NCBI RefSeq assembly: GCF_040732315.1
Contig: NZ_CP160388.1
Coordinates: 2,942,494 to 3,006,493 of the forward strand
Length of the DNA: 64,000 nt
DNA from: Oryzisolibacter sp. LB2S
GTDB lineage: Bacteria; Pseudomonadota; Gammaproteobacteria; Burkholderiales; Burkholderiaceae_C
Direction: 5' to 3'
The notes beneath the pieces were generated by a model. The model was given only the letters and a program-made list of their open reading frames with translations. It was not told the origin of the DNA and did no database searches. The translations under genes were made by a program, and so were the position numbers. Below, piece after piece: positions 2,925-56,840 of the stretch (positions are counted from its first letter, which is position 1; the number at the start of each line of letters is the position of its first letter).

Positions 2925-3512
2925 GTGAAGTTGAAGATGGCCCCGAATTCGGGTTTTGCGATCCTGCTGCGCTCGCCCTGGTGGGTCAGCTTCGTCATTG
3001 CCGGAGCCATCGTGCTGGCCTGCGGCGCGCTGCTGCCGGCCGATGTCGCGCCGTTTGCCGCCATCGGTGCGCTGCCCATCGTGGTCGTGGGCTGCATCGC
3101 CGCCTGGCGCCAGTGGCTCGCCCCCGGCTCGGCGCGCGTGCAGTCCGCGCTCGATGCCGCGGCCGCCATGCCATGGCGCGACTTTGCCGATCTGCTCGAG
3201 CACGCCTGGAGCGCAGAGGGCCATGCGGTGGAGCGCCTGAGCGGCACACAGGCCGACCTGCGCATTACCCGCGGCGAGCAGACGCTGCTCGTGGCCGCAC
3301 GCCGCTACAAGGCCGCGAGCCATGGCGTGGAGCCGCTGCGCGCGCTGCAGGCCGAGGTGCAGCAGCGGGGTGCGCGCACCGGTGTGTATGTGGTGCTGCA
3401 GGGCCAGGTGAGCGAGCAGGCGCGCGGCTTTGCGCGTGACCAAGGCCTGGCGCTGCTCGAGGGTGAGGCGCTCGCCGCGCTGCTGCTCAAGGCCCCGGCG
3501 CGCAGGACATAG
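2925..3512 (+). CDS. Membrane-anchored Mrr-like restriction endonuclease-fold protein
   Basis: Residues 17-36 and 44-61 form two hydrophobic segments. Residues 80-190 fit the Mrr-type nuclease fold (WRDFADLLEHAW..EGHAVERL, then ADLRI). In active Mrr proteins the fold carries D and QxK. Here Asp111 is kept, but the strand that should read VQCKRWK reads VAARRYK, so Gln becomes Ala and Lys becomes Arg. The nuclease is probably weak or dead, or uses shifted residues. The GTG at 2925 is preceded by a good Shine-Dalgarno (aaggaagg). The patatin gene starts 28 bp downstream, suggesting a two-gene unit. No methylase is adjacent. A role in DNA quality control is possible but unproven. Confidence 0.7.
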   Translation: MKLKMAPNSGFAILLRSPWWVSFVIAGAIVLACGALLPADVAPFAAIGALPIVVVGCIAAWRQWLAPGSARVQSALDAAAAMPWRDFADLLEHAWSAEGHAVERLSGTQADLRITRGEQTLLVAARRYKAASHGVEPLRALQAEVQQRGARTGVYVVLQGQVSEQARGFARDQGLALLEGEALAALLLKAPARRT

Positions 3513-3540
3513 GCGCTGCACGGACACGGACGCCGCCGCC

Positions 3541-4797
3541 ATGGCCACCACCGCCTCGCCCATCGCCACCACAGCCCTGGTGCTCACGGGCGGCGGCGCG
3601 CGCGCGGCCTACCAGGTGGGCGTGCTGCAGGCGGTTGCCGGGCTGCGCGCGGCCTGCGGCCATGTGCATGGCCCGGCGCCCTTTGCCATCTACAGCGGCA
3701 CCTCGGCGGGCGCGATCAACGCAGCCGCCCTGGCCTGCGGCGCGGACCACTTCGACCACGCGGTGCGCGGCATCGCGCGCGTGTGGGCGCATTTCCACGC
3801 GGCCCAGGTCTATCACGCGGACTCGCTGCACGTGATGCGGCGCGGCGCGCACTGGCTCACGCTGCTGTCCCTGGGCTGGGCGCTCACGCGCTGGCGGCAT
3901 GTCCACCCGCATTCGCTGCTCAACAACGCGCCGCTCGGAGAGCTCCTGGAGCGGCTGGTGCCCGTGCAGCGCGTGCCGCACCTGATCCGCGAGGGCCATC
4001 TGCGCGCACTGGTCGTGACGGCGTCGAGCTACCACTCGGGCCAGCATGTGGCGTTCTTCGACGCGGGCGACGCGCAGCGGCCCTGGGCGCGCTCGCTGCG
4101 CATGTCTGCGCGCGGACCCATCACGCAGCAGCATCTGCTGGCCTCGTCGGCCATCCCCCTGGTGTTTCCGGCCGCGGCACTGCCCATCGACGGGCACACC
4201 GAGTATTTCGGCGATGGCTCCATGCGCCAGACCGCGCCGCTGGCGCCCGCCATCCACCTGGGGGCGGACCGGCTGATGGTGGTCGGTACGAGCCGCGCCT
4301 ACGAACCACCTCCACCATGCCCGCCGGGCACCCGCCAGCCCTACCCATCCCTGGCTCAGGTCGCGGGCCATGCGCTGTCCAACATCTTTCTGGATGCGCT
4401 GTCCTCGGACATCGAGCACCTGCAGCACATCAACGAGCTGCTGGCGCTGCGCACACCCGAGGAGCGCGCACATGGCCCGCTGCGCCCGCTCGAGCTGCTC
4501 GTGATGCTGCCCTCGCGCAGCATCGACGACATTGCCGCACGCCACATAGCCGATCTGCCGCGCAGCATCCGCACCCTGCTCGGTGCCCTCGGGGTCAAGG
4601 CCGCTCCAGCGGGCCCGCGCAGCGACAGCAGCGGCAACAACGGCGCCCTGGTCAGCTATCTGCTGTTCGAGCGCGCCTTCACCCGCGAACTCATGGCGCT
4701 GGGCCGCAGCGACACCCTGGCGCGACGCGGCGAGGTCTGCGCCTTCTTCGGCTGGCACGACCGCGGTGATCCGGTGCGCATGGCCTGCTACGCCTGA
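3541..4797 (+). CDS. Patatin-like phospholipase
   Basis: Predicted acyl hydrolase of 418 aa. It has the oxyanion-hole motif GGGARAAY (residues 17-24), the nucleophile elbow GTSAG with Ser55, and the dyad aspartate in FGDGSM (Asp225), which is the complete patatin active site. No signal peptide is visible, so it is probably cytoplasmic or membrane-associated. The ATG at 3541 directly precedes the conserved domain; upstream in-frame codons overlap the preceding gene and are unlikely to be used. The extended C-terminal part, with LEHLQHINELLAL-like helices, is seen in the larger bacterial patatins that act on phospholipids. The physiological substrate is unknown. Confidence 0.85.
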   Translation: MATTASPIATTALVLTGGGARAAYQVGVLQAVAGLRAACGHVHGPAPFAIYSGTSAGAINAAALACGADHFDHAVRGIARVWAHFHAAQVYHADSLHVMRRGAHWLTLLSLGWALTRWRHVHPHSLLNNAPLGELLERLVPVQRVPHLIREGHLRALVVTASSYHSGQHVAFFDAGDAQRPWARSLRMSARGPITQQHLLASSAIPLVFPAAALPIDGHTEYFGDGSMRQTAPLAPAIHLGADRLMVVGTSRAYEPPPPCPPGTRQPYPSLAQVAGHALSNIFLDALSSDIEHLQHINELLALRTPEERAHGPLRPLELLVMLPSRSIDDIAARHIADLPRSIRTLLGALGVKAAPAGPRSDSSGNNGALVSYLLFERAFTRELMALGRSDTLARRGEVCAFFGWHDRGDPVRMACYA

Positions 4798-42420: not shown

Positions 42421-44058
42421 ATGCCAAGAACACCCGTTCCGATCATTGACCTCTTTGCGGGCCCGGGAGGACTTGGAGAGGGCTTTGCCTCCCTGAAGGG
42501 TCACGACAAGCAACCATTCTTCGAGATCGGACTCTCCATTGAAAAGACAGAGGTAGCGCACCGCACGCTGATGCTGCGTGCTGCGTTCCGACGCCTGCGT
42601 GGCACCAAGGATGTCAGGCACTACTACAGCTTCGTGCGTGGCGAAATCGACGAGGCAACCTTCCGCAGCATCCCTGCCGTGGCTCAGGCCTTCAAACACG
42701 CCGCCCGGGAAGCGCGATGCCTGGAGCTCGGCAAATCCGATGAGGCCGGCATCGACGCGGAAATACGTACGGCACTCAACGGACAGAAGACCTGGGTGCT
42801 CATCGGAGGCCCTCCCTGCCAAGCCTATTCTCTGGCCGGGCGTGCCCGGCGCGCCAATGACAAGGACTTCCACAAGGATGAAAAACACTTCCTGTACAAG
42901 GAATACCTGCGGATCATCCGAGTGCACAAACCGACCATCTTTGTAATGGAGAACGTCAAGGGACTGCTGTCGTCCAGCCATTCCGGCAGCCCCATGTTCG
43001 AAAGAATCCTTGCGGATCTCGCTTCGCCTGCGGAGGGACTCGAGTACGAAATCCGCTCCTTTACAAAAAGGGGGAACAGCGACACCCTGGAACCCGAGGA
43101 CTATCTGATTCATTCGGAGCGATATGGCGTACCACAAAGCAGGCACCGAGTGATTCTATTTGGCGTTCTCAAGGGATCAGGGGCGCCACAGCACCAACTG
43201 CTTGTCCCTGTATCGACTCCCGTGACTGTCGGTGATGCCATCGGCAATCTGCCGAAAATTCGCAGCAAGCTGTCCCGAGGAGATTCGGAGCTGACCTGGC
43301 GAAACGCAGTCCACGCAGCACCCTCCTATATTCACGGTTGGGGATTTGCAATCGAGTCGGCAGTGATCGAAAGAATGCAGACGCTGATCGCCGAAACGAC
43401 CAGTTCAGACACAGGCGGCGCCTTCATGGCGCAGCACGAAGGCAAGCAAGGCAATCCAAGCGAACTGGAGCAATGGCTTCACGATCGCAATCTGGGGGGC
43501 GTGTGCCAGCATGAAGCGCGGGCACACATGGCATCCGATCTGGCGCGCTACTTCTTTGCTGCAACCTTTGCCGAGTTGCAGAAGTACTCCCCTCGTCTGG
43601 ACGTATTTCCTCCCAAGCTGCTGCCGGATCATCACAACCTGCGTGGCGACAACAAAGCCGATGCAATCCCGTTCAAGGATCGCTTCCGCGTACAGTGCAA
43701 GAACGATCCTGCAACCACGGTGGTCGCACATATCGCCAAGGATGGTCACTACTACATTCACTACGATCCCAGGCAATGCAGAAGCCTGACCGTCAGGGAA
43801 GCTGCACGCCTGCAGACGTTTCCGGACAATTACTACTTCGCCGGCAACCGGACGGAGCAATACACCCAGGTCGGCAATGCGGTGCCGCCACTGCTTGCGC
43901 ACAAGCTGGCCAGGATTGTGCGAAGCCTGCTCAACGAAATGAACAGAAACAGACGTCGGCAAGTCAAGGGGCGAATGAATCACAAGCCAAGGATGACCAC
44001 AGGGTGCAGCCCATCCGGACAGCAAGCTCAGGTACCGTTATTTGCCGAAGCGAGCTGA
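42421..44058 (+). CDS. DNA cytosine-5 methyltransferase
   Basis: 545-aa C5 methylase. Motif I IIDLFAGPGGLGEG at the N-terminus, motif IV GGPPCQAYSLAG with catalytic Cys133, motif VI in FVMENVKGLL, motif VIII QSRHRVILFG, a large target-recognition region (about 250-450), motif IX around LTVREAARLQTFPD and motif X QVGNAVPPLLA. It transfers methyl from SAM to cytosine C5. Base composition is lower in GC than nadB. The 3' end overlaps the convergent vsr gene by 31 bp. In this setting it would protect self DNA or act as the modification arm of the downstream operon. Recognition sequence unknown. Confidence 0.93.
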   Translation: MPRTPVPIIDLFAGPGGLGEGFASLKGHDKQPFFEIGLSIEKTEVAHRTLMLRAAFRRLRGTKDVRHYYSFVRGEIDEATFRSIPAVAQAFKHAAREARCLELGKSDEAGIDAEIRTALNGQKTWVLIGGPPCQAYSLAGRARRANDKDFHKDEKHFLYKEYLRIIRVHKPTIFVMENVKGLLSSSHSGSPMFERILADLASPAEGLEYEIRSFTKRGNSDTLEPEDYLIHSERYGVPQSRHRVILFGVLKGSGAPQHQLLVPVSTPVTVGDAIGNLPKIRSKLSRGDSELTWRNAVHAAPSYIHGWGFAIESAVIERMQTLIAETTSSDTGGAFMAQHEGKQGNPSELEQWLHDRNLGGVCQHEARAHMASDLARYFFAATFAELQKYSPRLDVFPPKLLPDHHNLRGDNKADAIPFKDRFRVQCKNDPATTVVAHIAKDGHYYIHYDPRQCRSLTVREAARLQTFPDNYYFAGNRTEQYTQVGNAVPPLLAHKLARIVRSLLNEMNRNRRRQVKGRMNHKPRMTTGCSPSGQQAQVPLFAEAS

Positions 44059-44489
44059 CCAATTTCCAGGACGTCTGAGTCACCGTGCAACCACCCTTCC
44101 ACCGCTCGTGCTGCGCCTTCGGGCGACCGCTTCAGGGCGCACTCCCAGACGATGGCCACACGCCAACCAAGGGAGCGGAGTTGTTCCACATGTCGTCGGT
44201 CACGATCGACATTGCCGAGAAACTTCTGGCGCCAGAAATCTGCATTGGCTTGAGGAGTGGTTGTGTAACGACACCCATCATGCCGGTGCCAGAAGCAGCC
44301 GTGAACAAACACCACGGCACGGTACTTCGGGAATACAAGATCCGGTGTACCAGGCAGCGTTCCGACATGAAGTCGATAGCGCAATCCCTTGGCAAAGAGA
44401 AACGAGCGAAGCGTGCGTTCCGGCCAGGTGTTCTTGCCGCGAATACCCGACATCATGCGGCTGCGTTGGGGGGAAGTAGCTAGTTGCAT
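44028..44489 (-). CDS. vsr: Very short patch repair (Vsr) endonuclease
   Basis: 153-aa Vsr nuclease. Signatures are SPQRSRMMSGIRGKNTWPE, RYRLHVGTLPGTPDLVFP with catalytic Asp50, VVFVHGCFWHRH with His63 and His68, and FWRQKFLGNVDRDRR. It nicks 5' of T in T:G mismatches created by deamination of 5-methylcytosine, so it accompanies the C5 methylase. ATG 44489 is chosen because the conserved domain begins just after it. The gene is convergent with the methylase, with overlapping 3' ends. Confidence 0.92.
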   Translation of the reverse strand: MQLATSPQRSRMMSGIRGKNTWPERTLRSFLFAKGLRYRLHVGTLPGTPDLVFPKYRAVVFVHGCFWHRHDGCRYTTTPQANADFWRQKFLGNVDRDRRHVEQLRSLGWRVAIVWECALKRSPEGAARAVEGWLHGDSDVLEIGQLASANNGT

Positions 44490-44558
44490 GATGCTTGTGC
44501 GATCGGTTGCATGTCGTCGGATATCGCCCGCCGCAGCCCCTCGGACAGTGCCATCAGC

Positions 44559-44573
44559 GACAGACAATCTGTC
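44559..44573. promoter_or_regulatory. Nested inverted repeats upstream of vsr and the sigma gene
   Basis: GACAGACAATCTGTC is a perfect 6-bp inverted repeat around CAA. A wider pair, CGGACAG (44542-44548) and CTGTCCG (44569-44575), overlaps it. They lie in the 307-bp divergent region 44490-44796 between vsr and the sigma-ankyrin gene. A regulator of both directions could bind here. I see no gene in the region; a Shine-Dalgarno (gggaggg) lies upstream of ATG 44797. Confidence 0.4.
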
Positions 44574-44796: not shown

Positions 44797-47139
44797 ATGA
44801 ATGAACAAACTACGGCCAATGCCCGGCCCCTCAACCACTTCCTGAGAATGGCCGTCGTGGCGGGCGTGAAAAGCGCACTTCAACTCCACATCACCCGGGG
44901 TGACGACCTCAACGCACGTGATGCCAACGGCATGACACCCCTCATGCTCGCGGCGGCGCGCAACAATCCAGCGATCTGCAAGCAACTGCTGGACGCCGGT
45001 GTTCATCACGGACTGGTCGACCCCACAGGCAAGACGGCCCTGGAAATAGCCATCGCCGCCGGTTCGGATGCTGCAGCAGCCATCCTTGCCGCAACATGCG
45101 GACAAAGGTCCATCGCAACCCTAGAGCCACAGAGTTGGGTTCGGGTCGCTCCGGAGTTGCTCACGGAGCCTGTTCTGCCGTCGGTCAACACCATTGCGGT
45201 GGCCACATCGAACCATTCTGAAGAGACAACCTCCCAACCCACCGCGCACGAATCCACGGTCGCACATACGTCGATCGAGGCACCAATACCATTCTCTGCG
45301 GGCGCAAACACAGTGGACACCGGCGCGTTCGATCTCTCTGGCTGGGAAGCAGAAAGCGAACCAAGTCGTCCTGAGATCAACCACGTGGTAGTGGATGCGG
45401 CCCGCGCGATCCAGACCGCCATCACTGCTCACAGGCCGATCGATTCCTCGGCGGAATGGGACGACATCGAAATAGACCTGCCCGAGGCAGTGCCGCCACT
45501 GGTTCGCGCGGACAACATCGAAGGCCGAGCAAAGCTGCGACTGCTACTGCTCAGGGCACTGCGCGAGGGCAGCGTGCCAGCGCTGAATGTGCAGTCCCTG
45601 GCATCGAATGACGATCATTCCGCCAATCCAGAAGCCGAGGCGTACGTGACCATGGTCATCAACGACCTTGGTGCCGAGGTGGACGAGCGTCTCGAATACT
45701 CCGGATCTCTCGAGGTATTCGTCAATCCAGAAGAGACATCCGACGAGAAAGAAATCCTCGACCAGGCTCTCGCCATGATCGATGGCGCGACATCACGCCG
45801 TCATTTGCCGCTGTTGATCTACCAACGCGAATTCCAGCAACTGAAGTTGCTCTCTGCAGAGGAGGAAATACTGCTTGCAAAGGCGATGGAGGCCGCCCTG
45901 GAATCTGCGCTCGATGCACTGTCAACCTGGCCCGATGGCATCAATCGGACGTTGGCAGCGGGCGCCGACGCCATCACTGGCTCGCGACCGCTTGCCTCCA
46001 TCTCGGTTGGCGGCGCTACCGGCCCCGGATTGACGGCGGCAGACAACCTGGACACCGAAATACCAGGACAAATGAATTGCGAGGGCGCAACAGACGAGAA
46101 CGACGAGCGTACTGATGAGCCATTGATCGCCATTGGCAGCTCCGCCTTCGTCGACGCACATCGACGGTTGACCCTGCTCATGGAAGGGAGTGACCCTGCG
46201 GAGGCATCGACCAAACAAATACGCCAGGCGCTTGCAGATATGCGTCTCGACCGCCGCTTCCTCCTGGAACTGGGCGATACAGCCAACGGTTCAGGGCGCT
46301 GCCCTGGATATGAAAAGGCGATGTCTGCATTCAGAAGAGCCAGGGATCGGATGACTGCGGCCAATCTGAAGCTGGCCTTTTTCCACGCGAAGAAGCACCT
46401 CTACAGTGGCGAGCCACTGGACGATCTGACACAGGAGGGAAACATCGGCTTGCTCAAGGCAGTCGACCGCTACGACTGGCGCCGCGGCTTTCGGTTCTCG
46501 ACCTACGCCACCTGGTGGATACGCCAGCAGATCGGTCGTTACATCGCCGACAAGGCCAGAACCATACGAGTACCGGTTCACATCCACGAAAAAATCCAGC
46601 TGCTGGCACGCTCGACACAGTCTCTCGAAGAGACTGCCGGTCGCGAGCCGACAGTCGATGAGTTGGCCATGCGTACCGGGATGCCATCCGAGACCGTCGC
46701 AAAACTACTGCGCATCTCACCCGAGCCCCTTCCCATCGACGAGCACACCATAGATGAAATGATCGCCATCGACGCACGCGAAGGCTACACGGCGCCGGAT
46801 CCCGCAGACCTTGTCAACGCCATGCAGCGGGAGAAGGCTCTCGCGAGCTACATCTCATCCTTGCGAACAAAGGGGCAAAAGGCCGAAAAAGTCCTGCGGC
46901 TGCGGTTTGGCATCGGAGTCCACGATGCACTGACTCTGGACGAGATCGGCAAGCGATTCGATGTGACACGGGAACGAATCCGGCAGATCGAGGCCAAGGC
47001 AATCACACACCTCAAGCACCCCGCCCGACTGGAACCCTTCGCGCGTGCTGTGCTGGGTACGGCGCCCAATGCAAGCACCACCGCTCGCAAAAGGGATGCA
47101 AAAGTCCTGACAAATCCATCGAAGGTGCATGAAGAGTGA
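44797..47139 (+). CDS. Ankyrin-repeat / sigma-70 fusion protein
   Basis: 780-aa protein. Residues about 17-100 look like two to three ankyrin repeats (DLNARDANGMTPLMLAAARN, VDPTGKTALEIAIAAGS). A long acidic linker follows (about 100-380). The C-terminal half is an RpoD-like sigma factor: region 1.2 (LPLLIYQREFQQLKLLSAEEE), regions 2.1-2.4 (from about 519, DDLTQEGNIGLLKAVDRYDW and FRFSTYATWWIRQQIGRYIA), region 3 (REPTVDELAMRTGM) and region 4.2 (about 710-745, EIGKRFDVTRERIRQIEAKA). The sigma part is housekeeping-like, but region 1.1 is absent and replaced by ankyrins. The stop overlaps the GHKL ATPase start (GTGA), so it belongs to the operon. It could switch the system on in response to a partner or phage signal (inference). 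Confidence 0.88.
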   Translation: MNEQTTANARPLNHFLRMAVVAGVKSALQLHITRGDDLNARDANGMTPLMLAAARNNPAICKQLLDAGVHHGLVDPTGKTALEIAIAAGSDAAAAILAATCGQRSIATLEPQSWVRVAPELLTEPVLPSVNTIAVATSNHSEETTSQPTAHESTVAHTSIEAPIPFSAGANTVDTGAFDLSGWEAESEPSRPEINHVVVDAARAIQTAITAHRPIDSSAEWDDIEIDLPEAVPPLVRADNIEGRAKLRLLLLRALREGSVPALNVQSLASNDDHSANPEAEAYVTMVINDLGAEVDERLEYSGSLEVFVNPEETSDEKEILDQALAMIDGATSRRHLPLLIYQREFQQLKLLSAEEEILLAKAMEAALESALDALSTWPDGINRTLAAGADAITGSRPLASISVGGATGPGLTAADNLDTEIPGQMNCEGATDENDERTDEPLIAIGSSAFVDAHRRLTLLMEGSDPAEASTKQIRQALADMRLDRRFLLELGDTANGSGRCPGYEKAMSAFRRARDRMTAANLKLAFFHAKKHLYSGEPLDDLTQEGNIGLLKAVDRYDWRRGFRFSTYATWWIRQQIGRYIADKARTIRVPVHIHEKIQLLARSTQSLEETAGREPTVDELAMRTGMPSETVAKLLRISPEPLPIDEHTIDEMIAIDAREGYTAPDPADLVNAMQREKALASYISSLRTKGQKAEKVLRLRFGIGVHDALTLDEIGKRFDVTRERIRQIEAKAITHLKHPARLEPFARAVLGTAPNASTTARKRDAKVLTNPSKVHEE

Positions 47140-48635
47140 CGGGAACCACGCGCAAGGCACCGCCGCATGCGATGGCGATGCTGGAATCCCTCCGAGGTCT
47201 GGGCTATTCGACAGCGACGGCTTTGGCCGACATCGTTGACAACAGCATCTCGGCCGGAGCCAGAGAGGTCCGGATCGATTTCCTGTGGGAGGGGGCCAAC
47301 AGCCGCGTGCTGATCCTCGACGACGGGCGCGGCATGAGCGACCCCGAACTCGAAGGAGCCATGCGGCTCGGCGACAAGAACCCCTTGACTCAACGCGCGG
47401 CAGATGACCTTGGACGCTTCGGAATGGGGTTGAAAACTGCGTCGCTCTCACAGTGTCGGCGGCTGACCGTCGCCAGCACAAAGGACGGCAAGCGAAGCTG
47501 TCTGCGCTGGGATCTCGATGAGTTGGCAGCCACTCCACAAAGCGATTGGCTGCTTTTTGAAGGACCTGCCGAAGGTTCCGAACAGTACCTAGCCCCCCTC
47601 GACGGCAAGGCTGCCGGGACGCTGGTGCTCTGGGAGCAGCTCGACCGGATCATCACCACTGGCTACACGGTCGACGACTTCCTGGCAATGACAGTAGTGG
47701 TCGAAGCACATTTGGCCATGGTCTTCCATCGCCTGCTGCAAGGTTCTCGCGCACGAATGAGGCTGTTCATCAACAACCGTCCCATCGCTCCCTGGGATCC
47801 ATTCATGTCAGGTCATCCTGCCAAGCCGTGGATCTCGCCACCCGCAGCCATGCAGACGGACGCGGGACTGGTTACGGCACAGTGCCATGTCCTGCCCCAC
47901 CACGACAAGCTGACAAAGGACGAGTTCAGGAAAAACGAAGGCCCAGCGGGCTGGACTGCGCAGCAGGGCTTTTACGTCTACCGCAACGAACGGCTCCTGG
48001 TAGCCGGCGGCTGGCTCGGACTCGGCAACTCGAAAGCGTGGAACCGCGAAGATGCCCACCGCCTTGCGCGCATTCAACTCGACATTCCCAACACGGCCGA
48101 TGCCGACTGGAAGATCGACGTGCGCAAGTCAATCGCCCGCCCCCCCGTCGCACTGCGCCAGTGGCTGACCCGTCTGGCTGAAGATACGCGTGAGCGCGCC
48201 CGCCGGGTATTCGCCTATCGCGGAGCACCAATGCCCACGCAGCGCAACACCCCCATCGCACAGGCCTGGAGAGTAGACCATACGAAGGACGGGATCCGCT
48301 ATCGGATCGAGCCAACTCACCCTGCAATTGCGGCCGTCTTGAACAGCGCTGGCGACCTGGAGCCTTTGGTCAAGGCAATGTTGCGGGTAATCGAGGAGTC
48401 GGTACCAGTCCAACGGATCTGGCTCGACACAGCCGAGAACAAGGACACCCCAAAGACAGGCTTCACGAGCGACCCGCCTGCAGCTGTGGCAGCCGTATTG
48501 GCAACGATCTTCGCCGACATGGTCGGCCGGCGAGGCATGTCCGCCGAGATTGCAAAGCAGTCACTGCTGTCAACCGAGCCATTCCAAAACTATCCATTGC
48601 TGGTCGCGCAGCTTGACGACCCCACAAGGATCTAG
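47136..48635 (+). CDS. MORC/MutL-like GHKL ATPase
   Basis: 499-aa ATPase of the Hsp90/MutL fold. N-box ADIVDNSISAGA (residues 31-42, Asp in place of the more usual Glu), motif II LDDGRGMSDPE (about 61), and the ATP-lid motif DLGRFGMGLKTASLSQ (about 90-105). A MutL-type S5-like domain follows, with KIDVRKSIARPP as the likely Lys contact. Comparative genomics has linked such prokaryotic MORC-like ATPases with Z1, AIPR and nuclease genes in predicted restriction-like systems. GTG start at 47136 overlaps the sigma stop. The Z1 gene begins 27 bp downstream. Confidence 0.88.
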   Translation: MTGTTRKAPPHAMAMLESLRGLGYSTATALADIVDNSISAGAREVRIDFLWEGANSRVLILDDGRGMSDPELEGAMRLGDKNPLTQRAADDLGRFGMGLKTASLSQCRRLTVASTKDGKRSCLRWDLDELAATPQSDWLLFEGPAEGSEQYLAPLDGKAAGTLVLWEQLDRIITTGYTVDDFLAMTVVVEAHLAMVFHRLLQGSRARMRLFINNRPIAPWDPFMSGHPAKPWISPPAAMQTDAGLVTAQCHVLPHHDKLTKDEFRKNEGPAGWTAQQGFYVYRNERLLVAGGWLGLGNSKAWNREDAHRLARIQLDIPNTADADWKIDVRKSIARPPVALRQWLTRLAEDTRERARRVFAYRGAPMPTQRNTPIAQAWRVDHTKDGIRYRIEPTHPAIAAVLNSAGDLEPLVKAMLRVIEESVPVQRIWLDTAENKDTPKTGFTSDPPAAVAAVLATIFADMVGRRGMSAEIAKQSLLSTEPFQNYPLLVAQLDDPTRI

Positions 48636-48662: not shown

Positions 48663-50423
48663 ATGCCAGAGTTCAGCACACTGACTGCGACGACACTCAA
48701 CATCGCACAGAGCTTGCTCATTGCGGAAAAAGACAAGGGGCCAATTACCACCACCTTGATCACCGAGAAGGTGACACTCGCAGCATCGGTGGTCGCACCG
48801 GGCAGCGAAGACACCATAGACAAGGCAGCGGCCTGTGCCGAGCTGATACGGCGATTCAGTCTGTGGATTGGGCAGGACACTGCGCTCTCCGACACAACCG
48901 GCCATGAACCCTGGCTCAATGCAGCACGCAAGAAGAGCTGGCGATACTGGCCACGATACCGTGACATGCTGGATCGGAAAATGTCGGCGACAGCTGTCGA
49001 TGCCGTGGACATCTCCACGGATCGTATCCTCGGACTCATGGAGGATCCCAACCGTGGGGGCGCCTGGGATCGGCGCGGCTTGGTGGTGGGCCATGTCCAG
49101 TCCGGAAAGACTGCAAACTACTCCGGCCTGATATGCAAGGCGGCGGACTCTGGCTACAAGATCATCATCGTTCTGGCGGGTCTGCACAACAACCTGCGCT
49201 CGCAGACGCAGATTCGCCTCGAAGAGGGTTTTCTTGGCTACGAAACCTCGGCTACGGGCGACATCGTCAAGCTGATCGGCGTCGGAGAACAAGGCCGCGA
49301 CTTCGAGATCAAGCCCAACTGCGCAACCAACCGTACCAACGCCGGCGACTTCAACACCAGGATCGCGAGGCACCTGGCCATCTCTCCGGAAGAGCGCCCT
49401 TGGCTCTTTGTAGTCAAGAAACACAAAATTGTCTTGGAGCGACTGCTCAAGTGGATCCGCAGCCATGTCGCAGACACCACCGACGAACAAGGCAAGCGCT
49501 TCGTCTCGAACCTGCCGTTGCTGCTGATCGACGACGAGGCCGACCACGCATCGGTGGACACCGGCGAGCAGCACATCGACGCCGATGGCAAGCCCGATGA
49601 GGATCACGAGCCCAAGGCAATCAACAGCAGGATCCGCAAGATCCTCAACATCTTCGCCAAGAAGGCCTACGTCGGCTACACCGCAACGCCGTTCGCAAAT
49701 ATCTTCATCCACCGACAGAACGAAACACCCGAAGAAGGCCCCGACCTCTTCCCGCAGTCGTTCATCGTCAACCTGGCCGCGCCATCCAACTATGTTGGCC
49801 CAGCACGTGTCTTCGGATTGCGAACCCCGGAAGGACGCAGCGGCCTGCCACTCACGCGAGTTTTCCAGGATCACGCCAGCAAAGATGAGCGCGGGGGCTG
49901 GATGCCTCCGAAGCACAAAAAAGACCACACGCCACGCCACATGGGGCAGGACGAGATACCGCCCTCTTTGCGCGAGGCCATCCAAGCCTTCGTCCTGGCG
50001 TGCGCGGCCCGGGAGGTTCGCGGTCAAGCGGCGCAGCACTCATCAATGCTCGTTCACGTTACACGCTTCACACTCGTCCAAAAGGAAGTCCACCGCCAGG
50101 TCGAGGACTTCGTCCAGAAAATGAAGCTGCGAATCACTCGCTGCATCGACCATGAGGCGCTGATTGATCAGTTGCGTGAGCTTTGGGAATCCGACTTTGT
50201 TCCTACCACCGAGGCAATCGCCACCAAACTGACCGAATCCGAGGAGCAGCCTTCCTCAACGCCGTGGGCCGAAGTCCTCGCCAAGCTGCCTGACGTCCTG
50301 TCAGACATCGATGTGCGCATGGTGAACGGTCAAGCGAAAGATGCACTTGACTACGCAGAGCAAGGTGCAAGAGGACTCAAAGTCATCGCCATCGGTGGCG
50401 TGTTGATTTCCACGCAGAAGTGA
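48663..50423 (+). pseudogene. Z1-domain ATPase, N-terminal part (split by IS21 element)
   Basis: First 579 codons of a Z1 endonuclease/helicase-like ATPase. Walker A VGHVQSGKTANY is at about 143-153 and Walker B LLLIDDEADHAS at about 286-297, followed by a motif III-like YVGYTATPFANIF. The frame enters the insertion sequence after IAIGG and ends seven codons later. The fragment therefore lacks motif V (GGDKLARGLTLEG) and motif VI (GRWFGY). Shine-Dalgarno tagggaga before ATG 48663. Without the insertion the frame joins the distal part exactly, giving about 959 aa. The product as it stands is probably inactive. Confidence 0.9.
50394..50400. repeat. IS21 target-site duplication, left copy
   Basis: GGTGGCG directly precedes the element and is repeated at 52902-52908 directly after it. 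The 7-bp length fits IS21-family insertions (4-8 bp). Confidence 0.9.
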
Positions 50424-50508
50424 CCCACTAACCCCCAGGATTTCCATCCAAACCTGACCCACGTACTAACCCTAACCTGCTGCTTTGTTGAGCAGCAGGA
50501 GACCAGGA

Positions 50509-52035
50509 GTGATAGACGTGGCAACACTGAGTGTCATCAGGCGCTGGGCCCTGCGAGAGCAGCTGTCCATCAGGGAGATCGCCCGCCGCACGGGCCTCTC
50601 GCGCAACACCATCCGCAAGTACCTGCGCGCAGGCGAGGCCGAGCCGCACTATGCCAAGCGGGTCAGTCCATCCAAGCTAGATCCCTTCGCCTTGAAGCTC
50701 GCCGGCTGGCTCAAGACGGAAGCTGGCCGATCCCGCAAGCAGCGGCGCACCATCAAGCAGATGTACCTGGATCTGCAGGCGCTCGGTTATGGCGGCTCCT
50801 ACAACCGTGTGGCGGCCTTCGCCCGCCTCTGGCACGAGCAGCGCCTTGTGGCCCAGCAGACCACTGGCCGCGGCACCTTCGTTCCCCTGACCTTCGGCCC
50901 GGGTGAGGCCTTCCAGTTCGACTGGAGCGAGGACTGGGCTGTTCTCGCTGGCGTGCGCACCAAGCTGCAGGTAGCCCACTTCAAGCTCAGCCACAGCCGA
51001 GCGTTCTACCTGCGCGCCTACCCCCTGCAGACGCACGAGATGCTGTTCGATGCCCACAACCATGCATTCGTAGTCCTGGGTGGCGTGCCCCGTCGAGGCA
51101 TCTACGACAACATGCGCACCGCTGTAGACCGGGTGCGCCGTGGCAAAGAGCGCGACGTCAATGCGCGCTTTGCGGCCATGGTCAGCCACTTCCTGTTCGA
51201 GGCCGAGTTCTGCAATCCGGCGTCGGGCTGGGAGAAGGGCCAAGTGGAGAAGAACGTGCGCGATGCCCGCCATCGCCTGTGGCAGGTGGTGCCGCCATTC
51301 CTAAGCCTGTCCGATCTCAATGCCTGGCTTGAAGAGCGCTGCGTGGCGCTGTGGCACGAGATCGAGCACGGCAAGCTGCCGGGCACCGTCGCGGATGTCT
51401 GGGCTCAAGAGAAGGCAACCTTGATGCCGATGCCCCGGCCCTTCGATGGCTTTGTGGAGCACACCAAGCGCGTCTCACCCACCTGCTTGGTCCACTTCGA
51501 GCGCAATCGCTACAGCGTGCCGGCGCCGTATGCCAATCGACCGGTGAGCCTGCGGGTCTATGCCGATCGCCTGGTGGTCGCTGCCGAAGGCCAGATCATC
51601 TGTGAACACCAGCGCCTGATCGAGCGCAACCACCATGGCGCTGGGCAGACCGTCTATGACTGGCGCCACTACCTGGCGGTGCTGCAGCGCAAACCAGGAG
51701 CTTTGCGCAACGGCGCCCCATTCCTGGAGCTACCAGCGGCCTTCAAGCGACTGCAGGCCACCTTGCTCAAGCAACCCGGCGGCGACCGGGAGATGGTGGA
51801 GGTACTGGCTCTCGTGCTGCACCACGATGAACAGGCTGTGCTCGCTGCAGTGGAGTTGGCACTGGAGTCAGGGGCTGCCAGCAAGACGCACATCCTGAAC
51901 GTGCTGCACCGCTTGCTGGACGGCAAGCCCGCTCCAGCACCGGTCACATCGCCGCAGGCCCTCAAGCTGGCGGTGGAACCCCAAGCCAATGTGCGTCGTT
52001 ACGACCAATTGAGGGAGGTGCGCTATGCGTCATGA
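50509..52035 (+). CDS. istA: IS21-family transposase IstA
   Basis: 508-aa DDE transposase. N-terminal HTH ([24 protein letters not shown]), then a catalytic core beginning with [12 protein letters not shown] (first Asp), [13 protein letters not shown] (second Asp) and [19 protein letters not shown] (Glu region). A beta-barrel-like C-terminal domain follows. GTG 50509 is chosen; GTG 50518, preceded by aggag, is equally plausible. It overlaps istB by 11 bp, the usual translational coupling. Confidence 0.93.
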
Positions 52036-52828
52036 CCCTGCCATCGCTTCTATCGTGATCATGCTGCGCGAGCTCAAGATGCACGGCATGGCCCAGGCGG
52101 TTGCGGAGCTGGCCGAGCAAGGTGCACCGGCCTTCGACGCCGCACAGCCCATCCTGTCCCAACTGCTCAAAGCCGAGACCGCCGAGCGCGAAGTGCGCTC
52201 GGTGGCCTACCAGATCAAGGTGGCCAGGTTCCCTGCATACCGGGACCTAGCGGGCTTTGACTTCAGCCACAGCGAGGTTAACGAGGCACTGGTACGCCAG
52301 TTGCACCGCTGCGAATTCTTGGAGAACGCCAACAACGTGGTGCTGGTGGGTGGACCGGGTACGGGCAAGACCCACATTGCCACGGCCCTCGGGGTGCAAG
52401 CCATTGAGCACCATCACCGCAGGGTGCGGTTCTTCTCCACGGTGGAGCTGGTCAATGCACTGGAAGAGGAGAAGGCCCAGGGCAAGCCGGGGCAGATCGC
52501 GCACCGCCTGGCCTATGCTGACCTGGTGATCCTGGATGAGCTGGGCTACCTGCCGTTCAGTACGTCAGGAGGAGCTTTGCTGTTCCACCTGCTGTCCAAG
52601 CTGTACGAGCGCACGAGCGTCGTGATCACCACCAACCTGAGCTTTAGCGAGTGGGCCAATGTGTTCGGAGATGCCAAGATGACCACGGCGCTGCTGGACC
52701 GGCTCACGCATCACTGCCATATTCTGGAAACCGGCAACGACAGCTACAGGTTCAAGAACAGCTCCGCACAGCAATCACCACAGACCACCAGAAAGGAGAA
52801 GGCGGCCAAGAACTTATCCACAACGTGA
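52025..52828 (+). CDS. istB: IS21-family helper ATPase IstB
   Basis: 267-aa AAA+ ATPase related to DnaC. Walker [13 protein letters not shown] near residue 113, Walker [13 protein letters not shown] near residue 170, sensor region [13 protein letters not shown]. It assembles with IstA for target selection and strand transfer. The C-terminal Ser/Thr/Lys-rich tail continues to 52828. Starts within the end of istA. Confidence 0.93.
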
Positions 52829-52901
52829 GCGTGAAGCTCACGAACCAGGGTGGGTCAAGATTCGATGGAAATGGTGGGTCAGCTTTGCATGGAAATCAAC
52901 A

Positions 52902-52908
52902 GGTGGCG
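52902..52908. repeat. IS21 target-site duplication, right copy
   Basis: GGTGGCG directly after the element, identical to 50394-50400. Confidence 0.9.
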
Positions 52909-54050
52909 ACAAGCTCGCGCGCGGGCTGACGCTGGAAGGCCTGTGTACCAGTTACTTCGTGCGCACCACGAAGATGTATGACACGCTGATGCAGATGGGC
53001 CGCTGGTTCGGCTACCGACCGGGGTACATCGACCTCTGTCGCCTCTACACCACTGAGGATCTCATCGAGTGGTTTGGACATATCGCCGATGCATCCGAGG
53101 AACTGCGAGAGGAGTTTGATGCAATGGCCGAGAGCGGCGCAACGCCACGGGACTATGGCCTGCGCGTGCAGTCCCATCCGATCCTTCTGGTGACTTCGCC
53201 CCTGAAGATGCGAACAGCCAAGAACCTGCAGCTTTCGTTCAGTGGAGACTTGCTCGAAACCGTTTCCATACACAACGACAATGAGGTTCTCGATCGGAAC
53301 CTGGAAGCCGTGAACAGGCTCATTGCGGCATGTGGTACGCCGGACGAGATCAATCCAAGCCGCATTCGTGGATCCCTGGAGCAACAGTGGGAGGGCTTTC
53401 TCTGGAACGAAGTTCCGGCCGACCACATTACCGACTTTCTCGAATCCTTCACTACCCACCCAAAGGCCCGCAAGGTCAACAGCACACTCCTGCGTGATTT
53501 CATCCACACCATGACTGAGACAGGCGAACTGACGTCCTGGACGGTTGCCCTGCTGGGTGGCGGTGAAGGCGGCAATCACACTTTCCCCGGCGGACTGACC
53601 ATCAAGGCCATGCCCAAGCGCAGCGCCGACAAGGACATCGCAGACAGATACGCGATTGGGCGATTGCTGTCGCCCCGCGACGAAGCAATCGATTTGGACA
53701 ATGCCGCTTGGGCCGCGGCACTGGAACGCACCAGAAATATGTTCAACCCCGACGCAGGCCGCCAGAAGAATGGCGCAAAACCCAGCACGCCTGATGCACC
53801 CAACGGTCCATCGATCCGCTACATACGTGGCAAGGGATGTGCATCCAATGGCATCGCACCGTCTCCGGAGCGTGGCCTCCTGCTGCTCTACCCTCTCGAT
53901 CCCCAGCAGTCGGGTAGCACTGCACTGGCCGGGCGAAAGGATCCGGTCATGGCGTTCGGTGTCAGCTTCCCGTCGAGTGACTCCGGCGTGAAGGTTGAAT
54001 ACGCGGTCGACCACCTGCTCTGGGCGAGCGAATATGGCCCTGCTGAATGA
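52908..54050 (+). pseudogene. Z1-domain ATPase, C-terminal part (separated by IS21 element)
   Basis: Last 380 codons of the Z1 protein. It opens with DKLARGLTLEGLC (motif V) and continues to MQMGRWFGYRPGYIDLCRLY, the arginine-finger motif VI characteristic of the Z1 C-terminal domain. It has no original start, but an in-frame GTG at 52959 and ATG at 52974 could allow some re-initiation; such a product would lack the nucleotide-binding half. The stop overlaps the DUF4420 gene start by 17 bp, so downstream genes may still be translated if transcribed from the element or an internal promoter. Confidence 0.9.
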
Positions 54051-55038
54051 CGACATCGAGCTCGTTTGGAGCTCATTACGGGACAGCACGGACGCTTCGG
54101 GCTGGCGCAGTATCTCCATCGCGACGATTGGGTCATGCTCATTGCTTGCCGGTCTGAGTTTCCCGGAAAGGAACGAGGCGCTCCTGGCAAGTTTTTCGTC
54201 GGACGTGATCCCCGCAGCGGAGAATCTCCCCGAAGGTCAGGGCTTCACGGTCTCACGGGTGACCCACCACAGCGACAGTCACAATTGGATCGCGCTCACG
54301 CGCAGCGCGCATGGCAGCTTGGAGCTTTTCTCAGCCATGGTGGTAGACGTGGTCCACGCGATGGCCACCGAGTCCGGAGCCAACGAGAAGCGGCTGCTGC
54401 ATGTCTTCCTTGCACGTATCCGTGCCTGGCAGGAATTCATGCGCAAAGGCGCTCAGTTCCTGAGCCCAGAGGCCGAAATCGGTTTGGTGGGTGAACTTGC
54501 TGTCCTGCGAGCCATCATCGACGCTGGTGTGCCAATGGCAGCTGCCGTCGAATCGTGGGTCGGGCCGCTCAACGGCATTCAGGACTTCGAGCTCGGCACT
54601 GGATCCATTGAGGTCAAGGCGACACTCTCGACCGCAGGTTTTCCTGCCAAGATCGGCTCGCTGGGGCAGCTCGATGATTCTGTGCGACAACCGCTGTTCC
54701 TTGCCGGGGTGCGACTGCGCCAGACCGAATCCGGACAAAGCCTGCCTGAGCTGGTGGCTGAGATTCGCAATGCGGCCGAAGACGACGCAAAGGCCATGCG
54801 TCTGCTCGGCGAGCGAATGATCGCCGCAGGCTACCTCGATGTCCACGCGAACCGCCATATCCGCCGCTTCACGCTGACAGACATTTGGGTCGTCGAGGTC
54901 AATGACGATTTCCCTCGTCTGACGCCGGGCAAAGTGCCGCTGGGCGTCACGAATGTCACCTATGAAATTGATCTGAACAAGGTTGCGGTGCCAAGCACTC
55001 CAACCGCCGATGCATTGAAACGATTGGGAGTCATATGA
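54034..55038 (+). CDS. DUF4420 PD-(D/E)XK nuclease-like protein
   Basis: 334-aa protein with a predicted restriction endonuclease fold. Candidate catalytic residues are Glu154 (LVGELAVLRA), Asp184 (GIQDFEL) and the E-x-K pair Glu193-Lys195 (SIEVKAT). The segment SPEAEIGLVGEL followed by VESWVGP is the DUF4420 hallmark. In MORC-Z1 loci this is the likely DNA-cutting subunit. ATG 54034 is chosen; it overlaps the end of Z1. The stop overlaps the AIPR gene by 4 bp. All catalytic residues look intact despite the disrupted Z1 gene upstream. Confidence 0.87.
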   Translation: MALLNDDIELVWSSLRDSTDASGWRSISIATIGSCSLLAGLSFPERNEALLASFSSDVIPAAENLPEGQGFTVSRVTHHSDSHNWIALTRSAHGSLELFSAMVVDVVHAMATESGANEKRLLHVFLARIRAWQEFMRKGAQFLSPEAEIGLVGELAVLRAIIDAGVPMAAAVESWVGPLNGIQDFELGTGSIEVKATLSTAGFPAKIGSLGQLDDSVRQPLFLAGVRLRQTESGQSLPELVAEIRNAAEDDAKAMRLLGERMIAAGYLDVHANRHIRRFTLTDIWVVEVNDDFPRLTPGKVPLGVTNVTYEIDLNKVAVPSTPTADALKRLGVI

Positions 55039-56840
55039 GTTCAAGCCTGCCCGAGTTCCTGCGCGAGACGCGATCCGCCATCAAGTCTCAAATGCGCGAG
55101 GGTGCACTCTACGAAGAACTGGTTTTCGCCAGCATTGTGATGGATCACATGTCGGAGATCGGCATGACCTTTGAACCCGTCGAGTGCCACTACGAAGGCA
55201 GCGTGGAGAGAGCCATCCTGCGGCTGAGCGGTTACTCCATCTCCGACGACACCGAGCAACTCGATCTGTTCGTGAGCCTGTACGCCGGCGTCGATGAACC
55301 CACGCCCATCCCTGATTCGGAAACCATGACTGCGGCGGAACGCTGCCTGCGCTTCCTGACGCTGTGCGCTGAAGGGAAGCTTGCCCAACGGCTGGACCAG
55401 TCCAGTGACGTGGCCTCGCTGGCCAGTACCCTGCAGCACATCTACAACGACCTTGAGCAGATTCGCATCTACGTCATCACAGACAGGGTGGCCAAGTCCA
55501 AGAGTTTCAGGACTCGTGAAATCAGCGGGAAGGCCGTACGTCTTGAGGTGATGGACATCGAACGGCTGTACCGTCATACATCGGAAGGGAAACCACGCGA
55601 CGAGTTGGTGGTCAACTTCAAGGAGGTGGCCGGATCGCCGCTGCCCTGCATCTACGTGCCAAGCGAAAACGATGAATACGACTACGCAATGACTGCGTTT
55701 CCCGGCGAAGCGTTGCGGCTTCTCTATGAAAAGTTCGGAGCCCGCCTGCTGGAAGCAAACGTCCGATCCTTTCTGAGCGTAAGAGGCAAGAGCGTGAACG
55801 CCGGAATCCAATCAACACTGCGCAATGCACCGGAGCGTTTCATGGCCTACAACAACGGGATTGTTGTCGTGGCCGACGAGATGGTGCTAGGGGAGACCCT
55901 GCAAGGCGGGCAAGGCATTGCCTGGCTCAAAGGATTGCAGATCGTCAACGGCGGCCAAACGACGGCGTCGCTCTATTTCACCAAGAAGAAATACCCAGGG
56001 ACGGATCTGAGTCGTGTCCGGGTACCGGCAAAAATCATCGTCATGAAAACGCAGGACGCGATTCAGGAGGAAGCGCTGGTGTCGGACATATCCCGTTACG
56101 CGAACAGCCAGAACGCGGTGCGCCAATCCGACCTCTCTGCCAACAAACCATTTCATGTCGAAATCGAACGACTTTCCCGTTCTGTCTATTGTCCCGACGG
56201 AGTAAGCCAGTGGTTTTATGAACGTGCTGCGGGCAGCTACAACACCCTGCTCGCGCGCGAAGGGAGCACACCTGCCCGCCTCAAGGCGCTGAAGGACGCC
56301 ATTCCCGCCTCACGACGCATCACGAAGACAGACCTCGCCAAATATCTCAACGCCTGGGCCTGCAAGCCGGACATAGTCAGCATGGGTTCGCAAAAGAACT
56401 TCGATCGATTCATGGCCGCGCTCTCTCCCACCGACAACCAAGAGGTTGTGCTGCCAACAGTGGCCGACTACAAGGCCATGATCGCCAAGGCCAAGCTGTA
56501 TCGTGATACGCAGAAAATGCTTCGTTCGATGTTTCAAGCCTTTCAGGCCAACATTACGGCGTACACGATCTCTGTACTTTCCGAGAAGTTGGGTTCACGC
56601 ATCGACCTTGATCAAATCTGGCTGAAGCAAGCCGTGTCGCCACAGCTCATGAACCAGATCGCCACCTGGGCCAAGGAAGTCAACGACACGCTTCACGCCA
56701 CCTCTGGTGGGCGTATGGTGTCCGAGTGGGCCAAGCGCCCGGAGTGCAAGGATGCAGTGCTGAGTGCAGCCTATTCGGAACCCGCTGACCACATTCCCGA
56801 AGTGATGTCCATCCGGACACCAACAAGTGCAGGCAGATAG
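55035..56840 (+). CDS. AIPR (abortive phage infection) family protein
   Basis: 601-aa protein. The AIPR core (about 240-520) contains ERFMAYNNGIVVVADEM, LKGLQIVNGGQTTASLYFTK, VRVPAKIIVM, then ISRYANSQNAVRQSDLSANK and SQWFYERAAGSY, all typical of the AIPR family named from phage abortive-infection genes. The N-terminal 200 residues form a separate alpha/beta region (FASIVMDHMSEIGMTFEP). It is the last gene of the coupled sigma/GHKL/Z1/DUF4420/AIPR operon. Its exact biochemical role is not established; it is a recurrent partner of MORC-Z1 and other nuclease systems. Confidence 0.9.
   Translation: MSSSLPEFLRETRSAIKSQMREGALYEELVFASIVMDHMSEIGMTFEPVECHYEGSVERAILRLSGYSISDDTEQLDLFVSLYAGVDEPTPIPDSETMTAAERCLRFLTLCAEGKLAQRLDQSSDVASLASTLQHIYNDLEQIRIYVITDRVAKSKSFRTREISGKAVRLEVMDIERLYRHTSEGKPRDELVVNFKEVAGSPLPCIYVPSENDEYDYAMTAFPGEALRLLYEKFGARLLEANVRSFLSVRGKSVNAGIQSTLRNAPERFMAYNNGIVVVADEMVLGETLQGGQGIAWLKGLQIVNGGQTTASLYFTKKKYPGTDLSRVRVPAKIIVMKTQDAIQEEALVSDISRYANSQNAVRQSDLSANKPFHVEIERLSRSVYCPDGVSQWFYERAAGSYNTLLAREGSTPARLKALKDAIPASRRITKTDLAKYLNAWACKPDIVSMGSQKNFDRFMAALSPTDNQEVVLPTVADYKAMIAKAKLYRDTQKMLRSMFQAFQANITAYTISVLSEKLGSRIDLDQIWLKQAVSPQLMNQIATWAKEVNDTLHATSGGRMVSEWAKRPECKDAVLSAAYSEPADHIPEVMSIRTPTSAGR

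Follow-up and report, generated by a model that had tools for sequence, protein, structure and literature searches.

An IS21-family insertion splits mzaC in an Mza-type defence operon of Oryzisolibacter sp. LB2S

The five-gene anti-phage system MzaABCDE was reportedly first presented by Gao et al. in 2020. Its literature was thin in the searches we made, with PMC9122126 holding no mention of Mza, and in the available part of PMC9523054 the system is termed 'validated'. The second described architecture to be considered here is the third type of MORC/paraMORC restriction-modification operon (Iyer et al. 2008, PMC2292703), which in the accessible sections of that paper comprises a GHKL ATPase, a superfamily 2 (SF2) helicase with the motif DThhQXuRhFG and a restriction-fold nuclease; cytosine methylases, Vsr and AIPR occur in MORC-type neighbourhoods according to the same sections. 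Here we analyse an operon from Oryzisolibacter sp. LB2S, whose genome is one contig of 3.84 Mb (NZ_CP160388.1). Within a stretch of 64,000 nucleotides (positions 2,942,494 to 3,006,493, forward strand), called the window in the following, five co-oriented genes stand in the order of Mza (sigma/ankyrin, GHKL, Z1, PD-(D/E)XK, AIPR), and the third of these, mzaC, which encodes a Z1-domain SF2 ATPase, is interrupted by an insertion sequence (IS) of the IS21 family.

PADLOC profiles match all five genes strongly and name them MzaA to MzaE. The NCBIfam models NF041931 to NF041935 assign the same names, but all five scores are under the equivalog cut-offs (the two mzaC halves reach 886.6 and 382.2 bits against a cut-off of 1500), and we therefore call the operon Mza-type, a diverged homolog of the described system. 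We consider it very likely that the element transposed into mzaC in the ordinary way, that it did so recently, and that what arose was a loss-of-function allele, known in kind, rather than an evolved switch.

The insertion in mzaC

The element has istA and istB scores above the curated cut-offs, paired ends and a short target duplication, all as in members of the IS21 family (Table 1). Both reading frames are open, with the end of istA (52035) overlapping the start of istB (52025); the ends read TG...CA, and extra end repeats lie further inside, beyond the terminal arms. Target duplications of IS21-family elements are 4-8 bp long, and the one found here, GGTGGCG, has 7 bp, no longer one being present among the repeat lengths tried (3-14 bp). 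For IS21 itself, the part of PMC10122671 available gives a 5-bp duplication and states that IstB is required for correct target duplications. Removal of the element and of one duplication yields an open frame of 959 codons with IAIGG/DKLARGLTLEG at the joint. A preliminary description, made from the sequence alone, had given the element ends as 50401 and 52901 together with this duplication, which is correct to the base, and had noted the restored frame, which our reconstruction confirms. Because the perfect duplication, the paired ends and the restored frame occur together, a chance origin of this geometry is excluded. An assembly artefact is unlikely, since misjoined flanks would have neither a common duplication nor a common frame. 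The element would have entered mzaC by the ordinary IstA/IstB reaction, leaving the 7-bp duplication behind. At the left junction, three hairpins overlap one another, a number near the chance expectation (3 against a mean of 1.8).

The element sits directly behind the GG of IAIGGDKLARGLTLEG. When the break is placed on a predicted model of the Simplicispira homolog, it falls into the loop that joins strand 572-577 to strand 590-595; this model is moderate (mean pLDDT 71.6, with 129 residues under 50) and served for local strand order only. A Foldseek search returned 17 solved structures at E<=0.001, which by title are SF2-type ATPases or complexes with one; their TM-scores were low (0.14-0.24 by query) and just the class of match was used. 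The stretch at the break and the downstream DTLMQMGRWFG are what we take to be motifs V and VI. The 5' fragment comprises 579 native codons and seven codons from the IS end, followed by a stop; it contains the Walker motifs GHVQSGKT (49089-49112) and DDEAD (49530-49544) and is without the remainder of the motif-V loop and without DTLMQMGRWFG. The 3' fragment comprises the remaining motif-V loop, then DTLMQMGRWFG (52980-53012), which resembles motif VI, and the C-terminal domain. The earlier statement that the break falls inside motif V and deprives the N-terminal product of motifs V and VI agrees with the model and with the position of DTLMQMGRWFG. Because the break lies within the motif-V loop, neither fragment holds a complete ATPase. 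No second mzaC was found in the genome, in which the two halves are the sole matches, and from this anatomy the function of Mza has very probably been lost by the insertion.

MzaC would be split between two ATPase-forming halves, the 5' part keeping the Walker motifs and the 3' part motif VI. With no working MzaC made, the restriction-like arm MzaB-E would be off, next to intact methyltransferase and Vsr genes, a combination that should be a tolerated state. Since the mzaD start codon (ATG) sits within the 3' end of mzaC, translation of mzaD may be coupled to that of mzaC and hence reduced. The genes around mzaC retain open frames and profile matches, as the preliminary description had noted, and the locus is probably a natural, clean and recent knockout that spares the other genes of its Mza-type operon. 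The split mzaC is useful as a null allele; it also serves as a warning, as annotation may count a split Mza operon as present.

Table 1. Coordinates of the inserted element, of the operon genes in the window and of the insertions in Escherichia coli mzaB
Feature	Position	Strand	Basis
IS21-family element, 2,501 bp	50401..52901	+	92.0% identity over full length to Delftia acidovorans plasmid element
Left terminal inverted repeat	50401..50428	+	28 nt, 86% complementary to right arm
Right terminal inverted repeat	52874..52901	-	28 nt
Left target duplication GGTGGCG	50394..50400		7 bp
Right target duplication GGTGGCG	52902..52908		7 bp
istA transposase	50485..52035	+	NF033546 324.8 bits, cut-off 160
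istB helper ATPase	52025..52828	+	NF038214 288.4 bits, cut-off 200; Pfam PF01695 E 1.6e-80
mzaC-like 5' fragment	48663..50423	+	PADLOC MzaC profile positions 12-580
mzaC-like 3' fragment	52902..54050	+	PADLOC MzaC profile positions 578-952
mzaA-like, ankyrin repeats and sigma-70 regions 2-4	44797..47139	+	Pfam; PADLOC MzaA E 3.7e-74; NCBIfam MzaA 499.7 bits (cut-off 800)
mzaB-like, GHKL (MutL/MORC-type) ATPase	47136..48635	+	PADLOC MzaB E 3e-203; NCBIfam 767.6 bits (cut-off 850)
mzaD-like, PD-(D/E)XK nuclease (DUF4420)	54034..55038	+	Pfam PF14390 E 2.7e-78 (for the longer frame starting at 53995); NCBIfam MzaD 375.9 bits (cut-off 420)
mzaE-like, AIPR protein	55035..56840	+	Pfam PF10592 E 2.4e-94; NCBIfam MzaE 935.2 bits (cut-off 1050)
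C5-cytosine DNA methyltransferase, operon neighbour	42421..44058	+	Pfam PF00145 E 4.5e-43; TIGR00675 138 bits, cut-off 100.65
Vsr-type nicking endonuclease, divergent	44028..44567	-	Pfam PF03852 E 3.9e-28; PADLOC Vsr E 6.5e-34
E. coli mzaB IS insertions	L116-L124, about 2936-4324 of each; L114:6399

Intact relatives and the age of the insertion

Matches to MzaC at E<=1e-30 were found in 25 of 398 genomes of the family, the window's own included. The alignment took in the 13 full-length homologs among them (>960 bits) and left out 11 with lower scores. The site is uninterrupted in all 13 at the protein level, as well as in the DNA of the three loci inspected (L037, L039, L036). The closest intact relatives found, in Simplicispira lacusdiani (87% MzaC protein identity) and Comamonas composti (85%), both have the uninterrupted site. 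Two draws, of 398 family and 399 order genomes, contained 18 distinct genes of Mza grade (>960 bits, or the window's split gene), 17 of them uninterrupted and the window's alone split. All of the best 80 of 555 GTDB relatives, on which our GTDB counts rest, have an mzaC near full length, in a ranking that favours full-length copies. The further alignments A2 and A3 comprise 11 of the 13 homologs and 34 of the 80 GTDB loci, respectively. Among seven genomes of the same genus, a DNA match was found in the own genome and in one other (G004) only, whose mzaC is distant (54% identity) and uninterrupted. The exact 42-mer of the empty site is absent from the viral contigs of IMG/VR, and the 5' DNA of mzaC gave no megablast match among plasmids, on which distant MzaC relatives occur in 28 records at E<=1e-50.

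The interrupted gene is well preserved on both sides of the element. Of 309 alignment columns that are invariant across the 13 intact homologs, the window keeps 303: all 100 of those in the C-terminal half and, of the 209 in the N-terminal half, 203. By a rough calculation, which assumes 2.2 non-synonymous sites per codon, at least one of the 100 invariant residues would have gone with 95% probability had the fragment drifted neutrally beyond about 1.4% substitution per site. The dN/dS values against Simplicispira lacusdiani (0.059/0.835 for the N-terminal and 0.091/0.769 for the C-terminal half of mzaC) fall into the range of the neighbours mzaB (0.088/0.841), mzaD (0.134/0.804) and mzaE (0.078/1.240). 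Further inactivating mutations in mzaC or its neighbours, which the preliminary description had named as a sign of old decay, were looked for, and no extra stop or other lesion was found in mzaA, mzaB, both halves of mzaC, mzaD or mzaE. Judged by this conservation, the recent date that it had proposed for the insertion appears well supported. The element itself has recently been mobile, because a second copy in the same genome (C1:2491822-2494322; L004:7823-10323) is identical to it over 2,501 bp. This second copy interrupts a gene with a ParB_N domain in its 5' part (34.4 bits, cut-off 26.3); its surroundings include genes of the DUF2326 and ABC-3C kinds and an integrase.

The remaining observations on the operon concern its composition. 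First in the operon is the mzaA-like gene (44797-47139), whose product is a sigma-70 factor that carries an ankyrin domain at its N-terminus. Both the C5-methyltransferase and Vsr are present at 39 of 47 Mza-type GTDB loci longer than 20 kb, and at least one of them at 45 of 47 (presence being a tblastn match at E<=1e-8); they are found on either flank of the operons (loci L034-L113). Some operons are mosaic: between the window and G004 (L092), MzaB is 76% and MzaE 86% identical, MzaC just 54%, and the loci L091, L089, L086 and L110 have a like pattern. In the mosaic loci, MzaC identity is at its minimum at residues 721-780 and 841-900, as if the C-terminal part of MzaC had been exchanged or had evolved separately.

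Insertions in Escherichia coli mzaB and the explanations of the split mzaC

A natural analogue is found in E. coli, where 56 of 5,426 genomes have a match to the mza operon and 55 contain most of it. In nine of these 55 operons, an element annotated as IS421 (IS421/IS186-type) lies within mzaB. All nine insertions share one position, and they occur in both orientations and in two operon alleles about 6% apart, which requires at least three insertions; they are spread over six haplotype groups, and the IS copies are identical or one base apart. Six of the insertions are flanked by the 12-bp duplication GGGAACGCTCCC, the other three by GGGCACTCTCCC. The loci fetched were those of all nine IS-bearing operons, of 12 of the 46 uninterrupted ones (M19, which is L114, and L126-L136) and of a second operon of strain ES5. 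In the nine, mzaA, mzaC, mzaD and mzaE are open, except for mzaE of 214-4, which has a stop at codon 570; in Z142-1 a further element, ISKpn26, lies where mzaA begins. Empty and IS-bearing operons are identical over 9,201 bp in two of the six groups (OkiPb01701 against OkiPb01676/01690, and LR9-2 against PD4), and AH21 and Z142-1 are one base apart. Empty and IS-bearing mza alleles coexist within E. coli, which makes the idea of switching testable, and the mzaB hot spot, with its natural empty/filled pairs, is the most usable by-product of this analysis. Two further E. coli loci have unusual arrangements: ES5 (L115, NZ_CM184343.1 241016-261044) has two complete mza operons in tandem, about 6% divergent, and in 2EC1 (L125) the operon is reduced to mzaE, which stands beside a remnant of the IS3-family element ISEc52.

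The position of the mzaB insertions follows from the element's known target preference: their target is GGGGN6CCCC, and GGGG(N6/N7)CCCC is given for IS186 in the part of PMC6925257 available. Among three other copies of the E. coli element, two have perfect GGG...CCC duplications and the third a duplication with one mismatch in 12 bases. The mza operon contains GGGG(N6/7)CCCC sites in mzaB and mzaE, with none of the nine insertions using the mzaE site, whereas two control defence blocks have no such site. An adjacent 8.4-kb defence block is IS-interrupted in 3 of 60 listed genomes, compared with nine of the 55 mza operons (p=0.07), and the hhe defence block in 8 of 60 (p=0.79 against the same 9 of 55); among the 31 mza strains within the 60 listed for the 8.4-kb block, mza is split in five and the block interrupted in none (Fisher p=0.053), the strains not being independent in any of these comparisons. 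The control listings hold the best 60 of 613 and the best 60 of 312 records (131 and 259 of which cover >=80% of the query), in a best-first order that favours uninterrupted copies, and interruptions were counted per block, in gene or spacer alike; they come from ISs other than the mzaB element. Defence loci are commonly interrupted by ISs.

These data bear on the alternatives to an ordinary, recent transposition. The insertion may have been favoured because Mza is costly, by self-restriction or by barring useful plasmids or phages, IS inactivation being the usual escape, which we regard as possible but doubtful. It is consistent with the nine mzaB splits in six haplotype groups, none at the mzaE target, with the five splits against no adjacent-block interruption in the 31 strains, and with Staphylococcus epidermidis selected against CRISPR, from which IS256 insertions and IS-borne deletions were recovered (PMC3784566, in the part available). 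The argument for selection from the E. coli excess was tried and is weakened, since the control blocks are without the IS186-type target and the target preference alone can explain the excess; moreover, the hhe block is no different from mza, and a single insertion in a single genome cannot show selection. We consider it improbable that Mza operons are repeatedly IS-silenced, and perhaps restored, within species, with the mzaC insertion as an independent instance of population-level switching of a costly defence; if this were true, E. coli operons identical except for one mzaB IS would allow a direct measure of the cost, protection and reversion of Mza. The reversible off-switch proposed in the preliminary description, in which precise excision restores MzaC in part of a population, is not supported at mzaC and seems very improbable. 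The 7-bp duplication does allow precise excision in principle, but the same geometry arises at every IS insertion with a target duplication and, as the normal footprint of an IS, is silent on reversal. The identity of empty and IS-bearing E. coli operons is expected from gain or loss, and the pairs agree with repeated gain as well as with loss. The excerpt of PMC3784566 also cites phase variation by IS256 insertion and excision, whereas in that of PMC9330008 IS21 elements lead to adjacent deletions and precise excision is stated for IS629; our literature search for precise excision of IS21 gave no report among the matches listed. Neither the same-genus relative, with its distant mzaC, nor IMG/VR provided an empty version of the site.

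Decay of the operon, with the IS as one of several lesions, would agree with the patchy occurrence of MzaC in the family, with the somewhat larger number of changes on the window lineage in several genes and with the six departures from invariant residues, all of them in the N-terminal half. Against it stand the open frames, the invariant residues kept and the purifying dN/dS values, for which we rejected old decay and regard this explanation as hardly credible. It seems extremely unlikely that both fragments are produced and come together as a working or altered ATPase: the insertion is co-oriented, and the 3' fragment offers GTG 52959 as its first possible start past the last in-frame upstream stop, its frame being open back to the stop at 52680, yet the cut lies within the motif-V loop, the 5' fragment bears an IS-derived tail, and a simple scan of 50200-53200 found no sigma-70-like promoter.

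Several points weigh against our preferred explanation, the ordinary and recent transposition with loss of function. The second IS21 copy is without a target duplication; a flanking deletion is likely there, and adjacent deletions have been reported for the IS21-family element ISPve1 (PMC9330008, in the sections available). The identity of the IS copies dates their last exchange and not necessarily the insertion into mzaC. IS21 elements can form outward fusion promoters, as the same sections of PMC9330008 state, so that the downstream genes need not be silent, and a split ATPase could in principle reassemble, given the possible start in the 3' fragment. More weakly, window-only changes exceed sister-only changes in the C-terminal half of mzaC (29:4, 20:12 and 23:6 with three outgroups), with little lean in the N-terminal half (14:13, 14:11, 17:11). 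The neighbours lean to the window lineage too (mzaD 31:15, 28:10, 26:14; mzaE 39:11, 32:17, 32:17), in mzaB to a degree that varies with the outgroup (31:5, 22:11, 18:17). These relative-rate results shift with the outgroup, and as L039 groups with L037, the chi-square from the L039-based version was set aside.

Relation to described systems

Compared to MzaABCDE, the window operon has the same five genes, in the same order and with the same domains, an order in which E. coli M19 is annotated as well. It differs in scoring under the NCBIfam equivalog cut-offs, in its split mzaC and in being flanked by a C5-methyltransferase and Vsr, neither of which is annotated in the E. coli M19 stretches examined. 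The composition of the third MORC type is also found in the window, with a GHKL ATPase, an SF2 helicase carrying DTLMQMGRWFG and a restriction-fold nuclease. The window differs in its sigma/ankyrin gene mzaA, the terms 'sigma factor' and 'ankyrin' being unmentioned in the accessible sections of PMC2292703.

The inserted element is closest to the Delftia acidovorans plasmid copy annotated as ISAlsp1 (istA) and ISThsp10 (istB), from which it differs by 8% over the full length and in its insertion site. To IS1600 it is about 79.7% identical, and both have two overlapping genes and related ends. Insertion of IS186-type elements at GGGG(N6/N7)CCCC (PMC6925257, in the part available) matches the E. 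coli mzaB analogue, but not the insertion in the window.

Natural IS insertions in cas genes and in 12 other defence clusters are described in the available portion of PMC10359306, in which 'mza' is not mentioned. As in the inactivation of CRISPR-Cas and other defence systems by ISs (PMC10359306 and PMC3784566, as far as available), the window has an IS with a target duplication in a defence gene, here with another IS and in another defence system. The IS-split mzaC is an ordinary kind of event, already known in kind.

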